DNA from: Pullulanibacillus sp. KACC 23026
Lineage (GTDB): Bacteria > Bacillota > Bacilli > Bacillales > Sporolactobacillaceae
Assembly: GCF_029094525.1 (NCBI RefSeq)
Contig: NZ_CP119107.1
Coordinates: forward strand, 4,030,001 to 4,094,000
DNA: 64,000 bases
Direction of reading: 5' to 3'
The number at the start of each line of letters is the position of its first letter. Within the stretch, counting starts at the first letter, position 1. Under the pieces are notes generated by a model. That model made no database searches. It was given only the letters and a program-made list of their open reading frames with translations, and was not told the DNA's origin. The position numbers and the translations under genes were made by a program. This document shows positions 4,916 to 19,415 of the stretch, in pieces.

Positions 4916-5218
4916 TTATTGACTATACTTGGCATTCCAGGCTGTCATGCCGCCCACCAAGTTTATAGCTTGAAGTCCCTCTCTTTGTAGGATTTCACAA
5001 GCTTTTGCGCTTCGTCCTCCTGAGCGGCACACCATGATATGTTTGGCCGTCTTATCCAACTCCTTCAGCCGATTTTCGAGATCTCCTAAACGAATAGGTT
5101 TGGCACCCGGGATCATACCTTGGGCTACTTCATCATCTTCACGAACATCCACAATACTTAAATTCTCCCCATGTTTAATAGCTTCATATAGATCGTCTGG
5201 CAAGATTATTTGAACCAT
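4916..5218 (-). CDS. Single-domain rhodanese sulfurtransferase
   Basis: A 100-residue cytosolic rhodanese with the catalytic loop CRSGGRS (Cys64) and the CH2A/CH2B-like segments VDVREDDEVAQGMIPGA and GGMTAWN. It should transfer sulfane sulfur from thiosulfate or persulfides to acceptors such as TusA. It is the first gene after the CstR operator at 5250-5265, so it leads the operon that runs to the TauE exporter. GAGGGAG precedes the ATG by eight to nine bases. Three more rhodanese domains occur nearby (the MBL fusion, the TusA fusion and a membrane-anchored one), plus one interrupted copy. Confidence 0.92.
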   Translation of the reverse strand: MVQIILPDDLYEAIKHGENLSIVDVREDDEVAQGMIPGAKPIRLGDLENRLKELDKTAKHIMVCRSGGRSAKACEILQREGLQAINLVGGMTAWNAKYSQ

Positions 5219-5249
5219 CCATAATGCTCCCTCTCAAAATATTTTACCA

Positions 5250-5265
5250 ATACCCGTATAGGTAT
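5250..5265. promoter_or_regulatory. CstR-type operator before the rhodanese-TusA-DsrE operon
   Basis: The sequence ATACCCGTATAGGTAT is an interrupted palindrome (ATACC/GGTAT), the G/C-tract inverted repeat bound by CsoR/CstR repressors. It lies between the end of cstR and the next gene. A TAAAAT -10-like box follows on the minus strand. The same 16 bases recur exactly at 6589-6604. Confidence 0.82.
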
Positions 5266-5312
5266 ATAACTAATTAAAAAAAATAGGGGGGACTGACCTT
5301 CCCCAAAATTTT

Positions 5313-5573
5313 TTAACGGCTTTTAACTAGAAGATTAACAGCCTCTTTAATGAGTTCATCAGTCGATTCGCCCTTTTCAACTTGCTCACGTACACAGGCT
5401 TCAAGGTTAGAACTGACAATCACTCCAATCGCTCGATCTAAAGCAGATCGCACGGCTGCCATTTGAGTAACCAGGTCTTTGCAGTCTTTTTCTTCTTCCA
5501 TCATTCTAATAATTCCTTTGACCTGCCCCTCGATACGACGCATTCTGTTTTTTACTTTTTCATCGTAATTCAT
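5313..5573 (-). CDS. cstR: CsoR-like sulfurtransferase repressor CstR
   Basis: An 86-residue, all-helical DUF156-family repressor. Cys31 (KDCKDLV) and Cys60 (LEACVRE) correspond to the two CstR/CsoR cysteines. The position four residues before the second cysteine, histidine in copper-sensing CsoR, is asparagine (Asn56) here, so the Cu(I) site is incomplete and persulfide sensing by the cysteine pair is more likely. Surrounding sulfurtransferase genes agree. The ATG at 5573 follows AGGGGGGAGAG closely; the longer frame to 5588 has no better signal. The second family member in the window (15735-16061) does keep the histidine and sits by copA, so the two paralogues divide into sulfur and copper sensing. 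Confidence 0.92.
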   Translation of the reverse strand: MNYDEKVKNRMRRIEGQVKGIIRMMEEEKDCKDLVTQMAAVRSALDRAIGVIVSSNLEACVREQVEKGESTDELIKEAVNLLVKSR

Positions 5574-5603
5574 TCTCTCCCCCCTCACCCTTTATGTTGT
5601 TAT

Positions 5604-5631
5604 TTTATACCCCACAGGGTATGTGTGTCAA
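5604..5631 (-). promoter_or_regulatory. Promoter with CstR operator upstream of cstR
   Basis: On the minus strand TTGACA (5626-5631) and TATAAA (5604-5609) are separated by 16 bases. The palindrome ATACCCCACAGGGTAT (5607-5622) overlaps the spacer and -10 box. Repressor bound here would block RNA polymerase, giving autoregulation of cstR. Confidence 0.83.
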
Positions 5632-5632
5632 C

Positions 5633-5794
5633 CTAAAAAAGTGAACTCCTGCCCGCTCCCAAATCACAAACGTTACCTTCTTTAATAGCGAGTTGTTCAA
5701 GAATTGGCTTAGGAGTAGGTATTTCTTATCTGTGATCACTTAAAAGTTTAGCCTCGTGTCCTGGATTAAGACGTTGGCCATGAGTTGATATCAT
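5633..5794 (-). pseudogene. N-terminal remnant of a class I SAM-dependent methyltransferase
   Basis: An ATG at 5794 with GAAAGGAG upstream opens a frame reading HGQRLNPGHEAKLLSDHR, stopped by TAA at 5726-5728. It continues in the same frame with a helix and then CDLGAG, the SAM-binding motif I, before a TAG at 5633-5635. The pattern (Asn-Pro-x-His...Leu then D-L-G-A-G) matches the start of small type-11 methyltransferases often found with rhodanese genes. Only about 50 codons remain and the cstR promoter begins immediately after, so the rest appears to have been deleted. The assignment is inference from motif order. Confidence 0.6.
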
Positions 5795-5829
5795 CGATCA
5801 CGTCTCCTTTCTATCCTAGTTTATCCAAT

Positions 5830-6195
5830 TTATAGCCAAGCACTCATGCCACCTCTTACATTGGTTACTTTTTCAAATCCCATTTTTTTGAGCAGTTTAC
5901 TGGCTTGGCTGCTCCGCATACCACTTTGGCAAATGACGATGACTTCTTTGTCTTTAGATAAAACCTGCTGCGCCTGTTGTCCAAGTGTGTTCAATGGCAT
6001 ATTTTGAAATTCCCGAATATGCTTAGCCTTGAATTCTCCAGGCGTTCTAACATCAATAAATTGCTTATTTACGTCTTTCAATAGACCTTTTAAATCGGTC
6101 GTCGATATCGACTTTACTCCCTTTACTGGCATTATCCGTTTTACTAGGAACAAGACAATCAGCGCTATAATCACAATGTTTAGCCATGTCGGCAT
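5830..6195 (-). CDS. Membrane-anchored rhodanese-like sulfurtransferase
   Basis: A 121-residue protein with one N-terminal transmembrane helix (about residues 5-20, WLNIVIIALIVLFLV) followed by a rhodanese domain with catalytic loop CQSGMRS (Cys89) and the C-terminal GGMSAW motif. The Lys/Arg after the helix places the rhodanese in the cytosol at the membrane. Such proteins could take sulfane sulfur from membrane sulfide-oxidising enzymes. It lies in the promoter-proximal part of the sulfur cluster, behind the interrupted rhodanese at 6203-6550, whose readthrough stop overlaps its ribosome binding site (AAGGAGG). The operator at 6589-6604 should control both. Confidence 0.88.
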   Translation of the reverse strand: MPTWLNIVIIALIVLFLVKRIMPVKGVKSISTTDLKGLLKDVNKQFIDVRTPGEFKAKHIREFQNMPLNTLGQQAQQVLSKDKEVIVICQSGMRSSQASKLLKKMGFEKVTNVRGGMSAWL

Positions 6196-6202
6196 AATAA
6201 GT

Positions 6203-6550
6203 TCACCTCCTTAACCTTCGCATTGTCAGGGATTCAATCGTTTTCTCACTCCTAATAACTCCGCCCCTATTTAATCCCTTTCTTTGTAAAATTCGTTGCT
6301 CTACTGCATTAACAAGATCTTGATTCGGAACCTCTGAATACTCCCTTTTTATATAGGGAGAGGGGATATTACTGGCCCCCTTTTAAAGGTGACTTATAAA
6401 AACATTGTAATCCCTAAGATCCAATAGCAACATTTTGTTATTTTTGTGGATCTTTTCAATCGTCCATGCGGGTAGAGATCGCTTTGGAATAAGTAGACAA
6501 AATAGGGATCCTCCAATGATTGCAAGTATTATAAAGACTGCAATCATCAT
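6203..6550 (-). pseudogene. Rhodanese-like gene with an in-frame stop codon
   Basis: The ATG at 6550, behind GGAGG, opens 55 codons: a transmembrane helix (MMIAVFIILAIIGGSLFCLL) and the first half of a rhodanese-like domain (LLLDLRDYNVFISHL). A TAA at 6383-6385 follows. The same frame then stays open for 59 further codons, reading KGASNIPSPYIKREYS, a good match to the IKGAxNIP continuation of that family, and ends at TGA 6203-6205 inside the next gene's ribosome binding site. One nonsense codon therefore splits an otherwise intact frame of about 115 codons. The second half has no catalytic cysteine, so even the intact ancestor may have been structural or regulatory. The stop could be a real mutation or an assembly error. 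Confidence 0.75.
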
Positions 6551-16061: not shown

Positions 16062-16086
16062 TTGCTCACCTCTTATCTAATTTTAT

Positions 16087-16113
16087 ATTATACCCCTATA
16101 TGGTATATGTCAA
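16087..16113 (-). promoter_or_regulatory. csoR-copA-copZ promoter with CsoR operator
   Basis: On the minus strand TTGACA (16108-16113) and TATAAT (16087-16092) flank the inverted repeat ATACC-N7-GGTAT (16090-16106), which lies almost wholly in the promoter spacer. This is where CsoR binds in other Firmicutes to exclude polymerase. Confidence 0.87.
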
Positions 16114-16344: not shown

Positions 16345-16385
16345 GCAAAAAAATGACTAAGCCTGCAGGGGAGGCCTAATCATTT
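16345..16385 (-). terminator. Terminator downstream of the lgt homologue
   Basis: On the minus strand AAATGATTAGGCCT pairs with AGGCTTAGTCATTT around a seven-base loop, followed by a run of T. It closes the dsbA-lgt operon and separates it from the csoR promoter. Confidence 0.87.
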
Positions 16386-16412
16386 CCTATTTATCAACTT
16401 AAGCAGGACGTT

Positions 16413-17201
16413 TTATTTGAAGTTTACTTTAAGGCGTCTATCGCGAACGATTAAATAGATCATAAAGATTAAATCTAGTGCAACAATTCCAATGGCTGAC
16501 CACTGGCCACCTGTAAACTTGCCGTATCGCGGAGAATCCCCACGAAAGAACTCGAGGATAAAACGCTCGACGAAGTAGGCGGCGACATAAATGGAAAAGA
16601 GCCAGCCTTTTCCCAAACGGTTGCCATAAAATTTCGAGATCATAAAAAGAACACAAAAGAGAATCATATCCCCTTGAGATTCCCAAACCTCAGCTGGCCA
16701 AAGAGGCTGACTTCCGTAATAGTCATAGGCAATGGTGCCCTTTGGATAAACAAGACCAAAATTCCCACCAGTCGGTTTACCAAAAGCATCGCCATTCATA
16801 AAGCAAGCTATTCTTCCAATCCCTTGGGCCAGGATCATAGCCGGTGAAAGATAGTCTGCAAATTGTAAAAAGCTTATTCTGTGATACTTAGAATAAATAA
16901 TTAGTGAGACAATCCCGCCGGCAACCGCCCCCTCAATAGAAATACCACCATTCCAAACTTCAAAAATCTGAATCGGATGCCGAGAGTATGTAGGCCATTG
17001 AAAGATGAAAACATGCCAAATTCGTGCTCCTATAATGGCACCAATAACTCCATAAAGAATAAATGCCTTTAAATGATTATAAAAAATCGTATTTTTAGTT
17101 AAGGCTAAGGCTACACCATACCCTAATATAATAGCGAGAAGGGAAATCACGGCATGCGTTTGAACCACATAGCCGAATAAATTAAACAAATCCTTATGCA
17201 T
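16413..17201 (-). CDS. lgt: Divergent prolipoprotein diacylglyceryl transferase homologue
   Basis: A 262-residue polytopic protein with about seven membrane helices of the Lgt family. Canonical Lgt moves diacylglycerol from phosphatidylglycerol to the lipobox cysteine of prelipoproteins. The signature region GRIACFMNGDAFG, the arginines in GARIWHV and the C-terminal VERFILEFFRGD are present. Two usual positions differ: the histidine of the GGxxxHG loop is glutamate (GGISIEG), and the Asn of GRxGNF is cysteine. The gene lies 79 bases behind a dsbA-like gene and shares its BlaI-type operator. A housekeeping lgt normally sits by hprK, so this is probably an accessory paralogue. Whether it still modifies lipoproteins, or only a particular one, cannot be told. 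Confidence 0.82.
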   Translation of the reverse strand: MHKDLFNLFGYVVQTHAVISLLAIILGYGVALALTKNTIFYNHLKAFILYGVIGAIIGARIWHVFIFQWPTYSRHPIQIFEVWNGGISIEGAVAGGIVSLIIYSKYHRISFLQFADYLSPAMILAQGIGRIACFMNGDAFGKPTGGNFGLVYPKGTIAYDYYGSQPLWPAEVWESQGDMILFCVLFMISKFYGNRLGKGWLFSIYVAAYFVERFILEFFRGDSPRYGKFTGGQWSAIGIVALDLIFMIYLIVRDRRLKVNFK

Positions 17202-17280
17202 ACTTATAACAACTCCTTTATGATTAACTGTTTTTGGATCCTAAAAAATATAGGTGATAGTCCCTTCATCAAGAATTGAC

Positions 17281-17973
17281 TTATTTAGCTAATTGATCGA
17301 CCTGATCGACAAGCTCCTGATAAGAATTGCCTGTGAATTCTTTCCCATTTACAAAGAAGGTTGGCGTCCCTTGAATCGATAATTGGTTGACATAAGCGGT
17401 GTCCTTATCAAGGGCACTCTTAAACTTATTTGTTTTAAATGCCTGAACGACTTTATTTACATTGGTTGGACTCGTTATCTCACTTAACGTCTTTTCTAAA
17501 AATGACTCCGAATAAAGATCAATTTGTTCATACTTAGAATCAGCGGGCTGTTTCGAATACAATAAATCATGGAATTTCCAGAATAATTTATTTCCCAACT
17601 CGTTATAGACCGTTTCTGCAAACAGAGCAGCCCGAGTGGAATCTTTATTTATAAATGGATCATTCATAAAATAAAAAGTCGCTTTTCCTGTTTGTATAAG
17701 ATCCTGATCGATCGCTGGAAAGGTTGCGTCATTGAAGTTCTTACAGATTGGGCATTTATAATCCCCGAATTCAACAATCTTGACAGGTGCCCCTTTCTTC
17801 CCTAAATAGGGCTCATCGTTATAATTGAACGTAACGGCACCCGCTACCTTACTAGATTGCGAATGACCAATAATAATTAACACAACCGTACAAATGGCAA
17901 TGATTCCGATTGTCCCATAGAAAATCCAAATCGAGAAACCGCTTTTCTTTTTTACCTTTTTCTTTAAAGCCAT
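17281..17973 (-). CDS. Membrane-anchored DsbA/BdbD-like thiol-disulfide oxidoreductase
   Basis: A 230-residue protein. A basic N-terminus (MALKKKVKKK) and one transmembrane helix (about 14-36) anchor an extracellular thioredoxin-fold domain with active site CPIC (Cys74, Cys77) in FGDYKCPICKNF, an inserted helical region and the cis-proline loop GTPTFFVNG. Homologues such as BdbD form or isomerise disulfides in exported proteins. No BdbC/DsbB partner is encoded beside it. It forms an operon with the lgt homologue, and a CACTACA-N3-TGTAGTG operator lies just upstream of the start, so the neighbouring BlaI-like repressor should control it. Confidence 0.88.
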   Translation of the reverse strand: MALKKKVKKKSGFSIWIFYGTIGIIAICTVVLIIIGHSQSSKVAGAVTFNYNDEPYLGKKGAPVKIVEFGDYKCPICKNFNDATFPAIDQDLIQTGKATFYFMNDPFINKDSTRAALFAETVYNELGNKLFWKFHDLLYSKQPADSKYEQIDLYSESFLEKTLSEITSPTNVNKVVQAFKTNKFKSALDKDTAYVNQLSIQGTPTFFVNGKEFTGNSYQELVDQVDQLAK

Positions 17974-18051
17974 TTTTTCACCTCTTTTAAGAAAATAGTT
18001 TAAAGCTATATTTAAGCTTGTCCTTCCTCAACTAGAAAGTTAAAATTACTA

Positions 18052-18068
18052 CACTACATATTGTAGTG
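18052..18068. promoter_or_regulatory. BlaI-type operator before dsbA-lgt
   Basis: CACTACA-TAT-TGTAGTG is a perfect 7-bp inverted repeat with a three-base centre, containing the TACA/TGTA core bound by BlaI/MecI/CopY repressors. It recurs at 19379-19395 before the blaI-like gene with only the centre changed. Confidence 0.85.
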
Positions 18069-18096
18069 CAGTTGCTAAAAAAATTTTAGCGACTAG

Positions 18097-18948
18097 CTAA
18101 GCAATTGTCACTAAAACCATACCGAAGAGAATCACTAAAACTGAAACAAAAACAGTTTCGCGATCCATTCTTATCTGAAGGCTTTGATCGGGGTTAATCA
18201 AATGTTGCAGCCTATAATTAACCGCTTCGTTTGAGAAGTGCACAAAAATGAGGGATCGATTCCTCTTTTTAAAATTATTAATCATTTTAAGTAATGCTGT
18301 GCTTAACCCTAATTCGGATCCTGTTGTTTTAATAGCATATTCATCTGCTGAGAGTTCACATAAAATCTTAAAATTGGTATACAGCAATTTGGTCATGGGG
18401 ACAAACCACAATGTCCGTGCAATCAGGCGTAAAATGAATATTTTTAAAGAATCATGATTGATTTTATGAGACATTTCATGCAGGATGACAGCCTCAACCT
18501 CTTGAGTTTCAAGCAAATTGAGTAAACCCGTACTCAATACGATTAACGGAGTTCGGAGTCCAATCGTAAAGGCCACCATTTTATCATCGTTAATCACGGC
18601 AATAGATTGACCTACAACTTTATATTTCTCACTAACCGCTTTGGTCCATTTTATAGTCTTTAAGGAATCGATTTTAGCATGCATTCTAGTTGATTGAATA
18701 GCATATTCAATCATTCCCACTATTAAAACGAGAATACTGTAGGCCATAATCGAATTTAACAAGAAAACAACAATTAAATAGCAAGGTGAATCCCTTTCAA
18801 ATAGCCCAATACAGAAGTCAAAAAAATCCGCTTGAAATTTCAAGCCAAAAATAAGATGAATCCCATAAACAGCTATTTGGCACCATACAATTAATGCGAT
18901 GAAAACGCCCGTTCCAAACATCATCTTTGACTTTTTCTTCCACATCAT
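18097..18948 (-). CDS. M56 (BlaR1-type) membrane metallopeptidase without sensor domain
   Basis: A 283-residue membrane protein. Zinc-protease motifs HEMSH (in ILHEMSHKINHD) and ELSADEYA define a BlaR1/MecR1-type M56 peptidase. Hydrophobic segments lie near residues 8-34, 58-82, 165-185 and 262-282. BlaR1 proteins are about 600 residues and carry an extracellular penicillin-binding domain; here the chain ends after the last helix, so the signal detected is not a beta-lactam through that domain. It probably cleaves the adjacent BlaI-like repressor. Its start overlaps the blaI stop by four bases, giving translational coupling. What triggers it is unknown; the neighbouring copper and disulfide genes suggest envelope or metal stress. 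Confidence 0.87.
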   Translation of the reverse strand: MMWKKKSKMMFGTGVFIALIVWCQIAVYGIHLIFGLKFQADFFDFCIGLFERDSPCYLIVVFLLNSIMAYSILVLIVGMIEYAIQSTRMHAKIDSLKTIKWTKAVSEKYKVVGQSIAVINDDKMVAFTIGLRTPLIVLSTGLLNLLETQEVEAVILHEMSHKINHDSLKIFILRLIARTLWFVPMTKLLYTNFKILCELSADEYAIKTTGSELGLSTALLKMINNFKKRNRSLIFVHFSNEAVNYRLQHLINPDQSLQIRMDRETVFVSVLVILFGMVLVTIA

Positions 18949-19364
18949 GACTTGTCCTTTTTTAATTGTTTGATTTTTTGTTCCAGTTGATTTAATAAGT
19001 TTTGATCAACATCCGTTATAACATCTAACATATGGTTGATTACAACACCACCAAATTCGTCCAGCAAATTCTCTGTTAACCGCTTCGATTGTTCCTCAAT
19101 AAACGCTTCCTTTGTCTGAACGGGCTTGAATAAAGAAACCCTTCCATCAGTCCGTTTTGTAAGAATGCCCTTGTCGACTAACCGTTTCATAACGGTCATA
19201 ACCGTATTAAAACTAATCGGCTTATCCTTCTCTAAGTAATGCTGAACCTGCTTGATTGACTGTTCTTGACCAGATTCCCATAGATAATCGATTATTTTAG
19301 CTTCGAGCGGGCCGAAAAAGCGGTCTAATCCAACCTTATCATATTTAAAATTTTTGATAGTCAT
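18945..19364 (-). CDS. BlaI/MecI/CopY-family repressor
   Basis: A 139-residue repressor with an N-terminal winged helix (about residues 12-85, with FNTVMTVMKRLVDKG as recognition helix region) and a C-terminal helical dimerisation and cleavage region. BlaI proteins bind TACA/TGTA palindromes as dimers and are inactivated by proteolysis by the cognate M56 protease, which is encoded immediately downstream with a four-base overlap. The two identical-arm palindromes at 18052-18068 and 19379-19395 are its likely sites, so it should repress itself, the peptidase, dsbA and lgt. The second palindrome overlaps the -10 box of its own promoter. Confidence 0.9.
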   Translation of the reverse strand: MTIKNFKYDKVGLDRFFGPLEAKIIDYLWESGQEQSIKQVQHYLEKDKPISFNTVMTVMKRLVDKGILTKRTDGRVSLFKPVQTKEAFIEEQSKRLTENLLDEFGGVVINHMLDVITDVDQNLLNQLEQKIKQLKKDKS

Positions 19365-19378
19365 TTCGTTTAGTCCTC

Positions 19379-19415
19379 CACTACAAATTGTAGTGTATTA
19401 CTATTTAAATTTCAA
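19379..19415 (-). promoter_or_regulatory. Promoter and BlaI-type operator of the blaI-M56 operon
   Basis: On the minus strand TTGAAA (19410-19415) and TACAAT (19387-19392) are 17 bases apart. CACTACA-AAT-TGTAGTG (19379-19395) covers the -10 box and start region. Binding by the BlaI-like protein would give autorepression. Confidence 0.85.

Follow-up and report, generated by a model that had tools for sequence, protein, structure and literature searches.

A predicted BlaI-M56 regulon with a conserved shared operator and a mostly thiol-related membrane output, viewed from a dsbA-lgt locus of Pullulanibacillus

The stretch of DNA considered here, 64,000 nucleotides from Pullulanibacillus sp. KACC 23026 (contig NZ_CP119107.1, positions 4,030,001 to 4,094,000; hereafter the window, in whose numbering its features are given), contains four genes encoded on the minus strand in the order blaI, M56, dsbA and lgt, with csoR and copA-copZ as their downstream neighbours. 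The first gene (18945..19364) encodes a BlaI-like repressor of 139 amino acids (aa) that contains no cysteine (Pfam Penicillinase_R, 83.1 bits against a cut-off of 22.6), and its reading frame shares 4 bases with that of the second (18097..18948), which encodes a short M56 membrane metalloprotease of 283 aa (Peptidase_M56, 45.8 bits, cut-off 31). These are followed by the genes for a membrane-anchored DsbA/BdbD-like protein of 230 aa with a CPIC active site (17281..17973; Thioredoxin_4, 92.0 bits) and for an Lgt homologue of 262 aa (16413..17201; LGT, 179.8 bits, cut-off 24.9), which alignment and tree place in a clade where a cysteine replaces Asn146. All four Pfam scores exceed the curated cut-offs and, together with the coordinates, they bear out the gene identities and the four-base overlap given in an initial annotation of this DNA made from its letters alone. 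The word "divergent", applied there to Lgt, fits the diverged sequence but not the orientation, lgt being read in the same direction as dsbA. The closest solved structure to the DsbA-like protein is BdbD (3eu3, E 5.5e-29); with its thioredoxin fold, CPIC motif and hydrophobic N-terminal anchor it has the features of a BdbD/DsbA protein, and it is predicted to lie outside the membrane.

Two exact CACTACA-N3-TGTAGTG palindromes accompany these genes. Operator 1, CACTACAAATTGTAGTG, lies before blaI at 19379..19395, and operator 2, CACTACATATTGTAGTG, which extends to an 11-pair inverted repeat, lies between M56 and dsbA at 18052..18068, 79-95 bases ahead of the dsbA start. A promoter scan places the blaI promoter (TTGAAA, 17 bases, TACAAT) at 19387..19415 on the minus strand with its -10 box within operator 1; this overlap, like the presence of a perfect palindrome before both blaI-M56 and dsbA-lgt, had been pointed out at the outset and stands. 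The two palindromes are the sole matches in the window at up to 3 mismatches. When judged by mismatch count alone, two matches are not unusual (the shuffle mean is 1.35); both, however, are exact. In the whole 4.8-Mb genome the exact 17-mer occurs only in these two copies (reversed control 0; composition estimate from the window G+C, 0.02), in agreement with the early claim that nothing else in the window carries the site. A genome search with a 15-base core, one mismatch being allowed, returned 5 places against 16 for the reversed control; the three additional ones, one within an open reading frame (ORF) and two intergenic, are not convincing, and an intergenic one (L005), about 130 bases before an unrelated gene, may be a further operator. 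After lgt, a terminator-like hairpin with a T run (16347..16387, minus strand; -18.7 kcal/mol when folded, absent from the list of the consensus scan) would mark the end of the dsbA-lgt unit.

The M56 protein was searched against 397 genomes of the order, and 39 regions with short M56 genes were taken; 77 loci came from a scan of named genomes, 46 of them good (L122-L167, Bacillales- or Paenibacillus-type) and 31 weak (L168-L198). With the weak ones left out, 86 loci were read (the window and L083-L167), and the removal of 6 duplicates yielded 80 distinct loci, chosen by M56 and not by the site. Their 1,117,920 bases contain 134 near-perfect sites (13 or 14 of 14 positions), and all 134 are placed at M56: 65 within 700 bases before it, on the blaI side, and 69 within 450 bases after it. 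At least one site is found in 75 of the 80 loci, and both in 51. When blaI sites with at least 12 of 14 positions are considered, 70 of 73 have a -35 match (at least 4 of 6) located 16-18 bases from the -10 box embedded in the site, with a spacing of exactly 17 bases in 62 of those promoters; shifting the box as a control left 1 to 22 of 73 with such a match. The embedded box reads TACAAT in 55 cases, TACACT in 8 and TATAAT in 7. Since the -35/-10 geometry is kept around the site, the repressor site is built on the promoter.

The perfect site occurs in 18 of the 397 genomes of the order, 15 of which carry the module, that is, in 15 of 40 module genomes (own genome included) versus 3 of 357 others (Fisher value 3e-14, computed with 39 module genomes, the own genome not counted). 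The perfect sites of the three non-module genomes were rejected as operators, two being terminator-like hairpins and one a coding stretch. Among 38 genomes searched for the perfect site, 23 have none, and the sites present there carry mismatches. In five genomes of one genus, which are all the genomes of that genus with perfect sites, such sites lie between a doxX gene and a divergent DJ-1/PfpI-type gene, unlinked to blaI-M56 (L223 at 5112-6364, on which the genes were checked with Pfam, and L225, L229, L230 and L231), and the blaI-M56 locus there carries DsbA-BdbC. As DoxX is the commonest payload elsewhere, these unlinked doxX sites match the prediction for a trans-acting repressor. Four of the same five genomes have further perfect sites between NlpC/P60-type and amidase-type genes; these form long hairpins with T-rich sequence and were discarded as operators. 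The conserved and the unlinked sites together support the proposal, made initially for the window, of one regulon with a shared operator.

As regards the genes, blaI lies directly upstream of the short M56 gene in 76 of the 80 loci, which upholds the suggested pairing of repressor and protease, and DoxX, DsbA or BdbC follows M56 within three codirectional genes in 69. The payload is DoxX in 32 loci, DsbA-BdbC in 16, DoxX-DsbA in 15 and DoxX-DsbA-BdbC in 2, with one locus each for DsbA-Lgt (the window), DsbA, BdbC and DoxX-DoxX, and none recognized in 11. A class-wide search of 398 genomes found 54 with a match, from which 36 regions, not all matches, were taken; the later set of 126 loci, in which L168 was included, was reduced to 115 by removing duplicates and M56 proteins outside 250-330 aa, among them L160 and L165, which lack Cys46 (see below) in the 80-locus set. 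Genes were labelled by phmmer searches that used one query protein, or a few, for each label, the CopA query also catching other metal P-type ATPases. In the 115-locus set, L237 is filed as "other", the choice of ORF having missed CopC (the record annotation gives CopC-CopD), as are L295 and L296, where TlpA lies on the opposite side of blaI. With these labels the payload is thiol-related in 84 of 115 loci, supporting the claim that disulfide chemistry is the output. DoxX itself takes part in thiol oxidant defence in Mycobacterium tuberculosis, according to the parts available of PMC7662651 and PMC7907618. Judged from sequence comparison, the BlaI-M56 regulon and its shared operator are conserved, with an output predicted to be mostly membrane thiol chemistry.

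Some individual loci deserve mention in this respect. In 6 of the 11 loci with no recognized payload (L122, L123, L124, L131, L138 and L143), M56 is followed by a DUF3105-type membrane protein whose gene is preceded by a 13- or 14-of-14 site in 5 (not L131). The L122 protein served as the reference for these matches, and the BlaI-M56 context suggests a redox role for this DUF3105-type protein. The gene after M56 in L120 had been labelled "FixH" by eye, a label dropped as it has no Pfam support; the product is a His/Met-rich lipoprotein, and the locus was not counted as metal-linked. Outside this locus, the genome of the window contains four DoxX-family matches and a bdbD-bdbC pair whose BdbC could recharge the window DsbA.

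The M56 protein is predicted to comprise a first transmembrane helix, an outer loop with Cys46, a second transmembrane helix, a domain with the HExxH motif (157-161) and a C-terminal helix. No penicillin-binding domain is found among its Pfam matches and the protein stops after the last helix, so the sensor is indeed missing, as noted initially; against blaR1_generic it scores 31.7 bits, with a cut-off of 400. Its AlphaFold model (mean predicted local distance difference test, pLDDT, 84.1) has Staphylococcus aureus BlaR1 (8exp) as top PDB match, with E 4.5e-4 and a template modelling score (TM-score) of 0.43 by query, followed by Ste24-type proteases. From the alignment range, the short M56 would equal BlaR1 from about the second helix on. 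BlaR1 cleaves BlaI directly, between Asn101 and Phe102 in S. aureus, and has both termini outside, signalling via an extracellular loop having been proposed (as stated in the accessible portion of PMC9834060). By analogy with BlaR1, the window M56 would have the corresponding topology and would cut BlaI. In the window BlaI, F104, which sits in a conserved DEFG stretch and is present in 75 of 77 aligned sequences, is near the position matching the S. aureus cleavage site. H157, E158 and H161 are kept in 80 of 80 short M56 proteins, and a near-invariant F238 is found in the loop 232-239 (pLDDT <50), which in the model may be placed near the autocleavage loop of BlaR1.

Cys46 (codon 18811..18813, minus strand) is conserved in 77 of the 80 distinct loci. 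In the 115-locus set, all 84 M56 proteins with a thiol payload (DoxX, DsbA, BdbC, TlpA or CcdA) have a loop cysteine, which is absent in 7 of the 115 (L120, L237, L288, L289, L291, L292 and L300). The contexts without cysteine include the lipoprotein of L120, P-type ATPases (L289), CopC-CopD (L237) and an M23 peptidase (L288). A pairing of Cys46 with Cys56 in the window M56 was considered and dropped, Cys56 not being conserved. We propose Cys46 as the sensor residue.

The genes, the shared sites, the promoter overlap, their conservation and the unlinked site copies can be read directly from the DNA; the mechanism that we consider the probable one, though with considerable reserve, is a BlaI-M56 thiol-redox switch. 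A dimer of the BlaI-family repressor would occupy CACTACA-N3-TGTAGTG; binding at the blaI site would block RNA polymerase, because the site contains the -10 box, and operator 2 would silence the payload operon. The short M56 would act as both sensor and releaser, its two-helix N-terminal part holding Cys46 outside the membrane on a flexible loop. A change in the Cys46 thiol, whether by oxidation, disulfide formation or reaction with an electrophile (a quinone, for instance), would free the HExxH domain in the cytoplasm from inhibition; this domain would then cut BlaI, raising both blaI-M56 (autoregulation) and the payload. The payload, in relatives DoxX, DsbA, BdbC, DsbD-like or TlpA, would handle thiols on the external side of the membrane; in this genome it would consist of DsbA and a duplicated Lgt-clade enzyme acting on the lipobox cysteine of exported lipoproteins. 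The sensing by Cys46, the signal that it would read and the role of Lgt go beyond what the sequence shows.

Several observations weigh against this switch. Five of the 80 loci (L119, L120, L121, L159 and L164) have no site, and operator 2 has no clear promoter of its own, a GTGACA-17-TAAAAT sequence lying just upstream. The structural match to BlaR1 reaches a TM-score of only 0.43, and the loop with Cys46 has a pLDDT below 50; a lone loop cysteine could moreover be structural. The Lgt-linked L292, and also L300, are devoid of the loop cysteine, and the M56 proteins without cysteine of L237, L288, L289 and L291 are alike by eye, so that the contrast with the thiol-type loci may reflect few events. 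DoxX also belongs to copper-linked bufferin clusters (in the portion of PMC12452194 available). Finally, the loop of L298 has two cysteines and yet a penicillin-binding transpeptidase-domain protein comes next; the cysteine therefore does not exclude a tie to beta-lactams.

L298 (5214-7603) consists of a divergent BlaI-M56 pair without a fused sensor and then this separate transpeptidase-domain protein (146.9 bits), and is possibly a split beta-lactam switch or its target. Together with the M23 peptidase of L288, the homology of BlaI and M56 and the weak BlaR1-like fold match, it favours another explanation, namely that M56 answers a cell-wall or beta-lactam-type signal, perhaps via a separate partner, with the thiol enzymes serving as general envelope repair. 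We regard this as very doubtful, given that the window M56 has no penicillin-binding domain and that the payload is thiol-labelled in 84 of 115 loci.

Copper offers a further alternative, in which the system would read copper together with csoR-copA-copZ, and Lgt and DsbA would remodel copper-exposed lipoproteins and thiols. Copper or thiol stress had been suggested initially from the position of csoR-copA-copZ, which does lie directly downstream. In favour of copper, a mobile element for copper resistance carries a second lgt together with lit2 and copper genes (PMC8689077, in the part available, citing Armbruster 2019), DoxX occurs in the bufferin clusters just mentioned, and copper or metal query matches are found somewhere in the stretch at 11 of the 125 other loci (L149, L156, L168, L237, L288, L289, L290, L296, L298, L299 and L301), some of them of thiol type: L149 and L156 (CopC-CopD), and L301 (CopZ and a CopA match). 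On Paenibacillus lautus plasmid pAZOPL1 (L237, 4565-7720), a second blaI-M56 pair is followed by CopC-CopD, beside a quinol oxidase operon; the loop of this M56 has Met-Met where Cys stands elsewhere. In the window, however, csoR has a separate promoter-like sequence with a CsoR-type inverted repeat (16085..16113, minus strand), which we take to resemble a CsoR site; the terminator-like hairpin lies between the two units, and the window scan finds no palindrome before csoR. None of the 125 other loci that were read contains the full trio of csoR, copA and copZ, and the M56 proteins directly before metal genes (L237 and L289) lack the loop cysteine, unlike that of the window. Because of the hairpin, the sequence of csoR's own and the absence of a shared site, copper control of the window operon is not supported, and the copper reading appears improbable. 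The tie of the wider BlaI-M56 family to copper is nevertheless real, since copper and metal genes lie near related pairs, including CopC-CopD after BlaI-M56 in Paenibacillus. A second CsoR-like ORF, separate from the copA-adjacent one, is found in the window at 5313-5588.

With regard to the output of the proposed thiol-redox switch, Lgt is a rare element. It is found at 4 of the 115 distinct M56 loci (the window, L235, L236 and L292), two of which are on Paenibacillus plasmids, and the order DsbA then Lgt is seen nowhere else among them; the expected four-gene block is thus confined to the window in its exact form, but the association of BlaI-M56 with Lgt recurs. Plasmid pAZOPL1 of P. lautus carries blaI, M56, a DsbD-like membrane protein and lgt, with 12-of-14 sites ahead of both blaI and the DsbD-like gene; ccdA-tlpA lies further along, accompanied by two sites that also match at 12 of 14 positions. 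A 2.7-Mb plasmid record of P. cellulosilyticus has blaI, M56 and lgt with sites of 12 and 11 of 14, and L292 has the same three genes with sites of 11 and 12 of 14. At L236 (11126-12747), two 12-of-14 sites and ccdA-tlpA are followed by a membrane protein with an Lgt-like start, as judged by eye. All four BlaI-M56-linked Lgt proteins fall within one clade of 12 (support 98/97), and none of the Lgt relatives read in the window's own family is linked to BlaI. Judged from these loci, the link of Lgt to BlaI-M56 is real but rare and limited to one clade.

The E. coli Lgt needs His103, Arg143, Asn146, Tyr235 and Arg239 (in the available portion of PMC8689077). The window Lgt, like the others of its clade, keeps Arg143, Tyr235 and Arg239, whereas His103 is replaced by Glu and Asn146 by Cys. 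Position 146 is Cys in all 12 rows of the clade, Asn in 6 of 6 ordinary Lgt proteins and Asp in two more distant rows; at position 103 the clade varies among E, L, M and Q, and the ordinary proteins have His or, in 2 of 6, Tyr. Lipidation as an output, another of the early claims, is therefore uncertain for this clade, since two residues required in E. coli are replaced. The own genome contains only two Lgt genes, both of the Cys146 clade, and there is no lgt at its usual place between hprK and ppaX (L207; G000:C1 near 1008443-1009360); a relative (G006) likewise has this Lgt type only. Such genomes hint that the clade can do the job, short of proof, given that Lgt is dispensable in some Bacillota.

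The window Lgt is most closely related to the second copy of its own genome (73% identity), and the two are sisters (100/97 and 99/97 support). This second copy (L040, 5324-6109) stands by itself, flanked by an ABC exporter pair and an aldo/keto-reductase-like gene, and no BlaI is near. In a relative (L048, 3098-7815), a more distant Lgt (39%) has in its neighbourhood a MerR-type gene and a mercuric-reductase-like gene, both labels being taken from sequence. The close kinship of the two copies, and a gene order unique to this genome among those examined, would agree with lgt being a passenger that reached its place behind dsbA by duplication and plays no special part in the response. This seems rather unlikely, as Lgt proteins of the same clade follow BlaI-M56 at L235, L236 and L292 with sites of 11-12 of 14, which chance does not readily explain.

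A wider and frankly tentative extension of the thiol-redox switch may also be drawn, in which short M56 and BlaI would form a switch family of Bacilli for envelope chemistry. The outer loop would be the whole sensor and its residues would set the signal, thiols or electrophiles with a cysteine and metals without one; some members would add an output by the Cys-clade Lgt, whose cysteine is placed in the lipid-binding site. As a whole, the observation made initially at this locus is confirmed and proves stronger than stated, and its interpretation is partly supported. Known from the response to beta-lactams, the BlaI-M56 pair is found here without the drug sensor; its operator is conserved and its output is coherent and thiol-related, in a pattern that spans many Bacillales and Paenibacillus-type genomes. 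This gives a testable site, a repressor and a candidate sensor residue for a Gram-positive reading of thiol redox outside the membrane, and sets a divergent Lgt clade in a regulated context.

When compared with known systems, the window resembles BlaI-BlaR1 and MecI-MecR1 of staphylococci and Bacillus licheniformis in having a BlaI-family repressor, an M56 protease with HExxH, a site over the promoter and a weak fold match of M56 to BlaR1 (8exp, TM-score 0.43). It differs in that its M56 has an outer loop with a conserved cysteine instead of the penicillin sensor, in that its targets are thiol enzymes, and in that its half-sites are spaced by 3 bases, the known BlaI/MecI spacing being 2. The CopY/TcrY copper repressors belong to the same repressor superfamily, and a TACA/TGTA core is common to their sites. 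CopY repressors carry a C-terminal CxC metal motif; the window BlaI, in contrast, has no cysteine and hence no CxC, is paired with a protease, and scores 42.4 bits against NCBIfam CopY_TcrY (cut-off 121.95). Of the 80 ORFs that precede M56, some of which are not BlaI, 2 contain CxC. Among the matches listed from the open-licence literature, seen as titles and abstract starts, there is no description of a BlaI-M56 pair controlling DoxX, DsbA/BdbC or Lgt. The copper-resistance element with lit2 and a second lgt (Listeria and Enterococcus; PMC8689077, in the part available) shares the extra lgt near copper genes, whereas control in the window differs. The window DsbA is closest in the PDB to BdbD, and many relatives of the module carry DsbA-BdbC, as in the BdbD-BdbC pair of Bacillus subtilis; the window, however, has Lgt in the place of BdbC, its bdbD-bdbC pair being elsewhere in the genome. 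Finally, the cluster for naphthocyclinone, a quinone antibiotic, of Streptomyces arenae combines a BlaI/MecI/CopY regulator, an M56 peptidase and a DoxX protein (compared by gene names, in the accessible part of PMC10697411), a combination that fits an electrophile signal.

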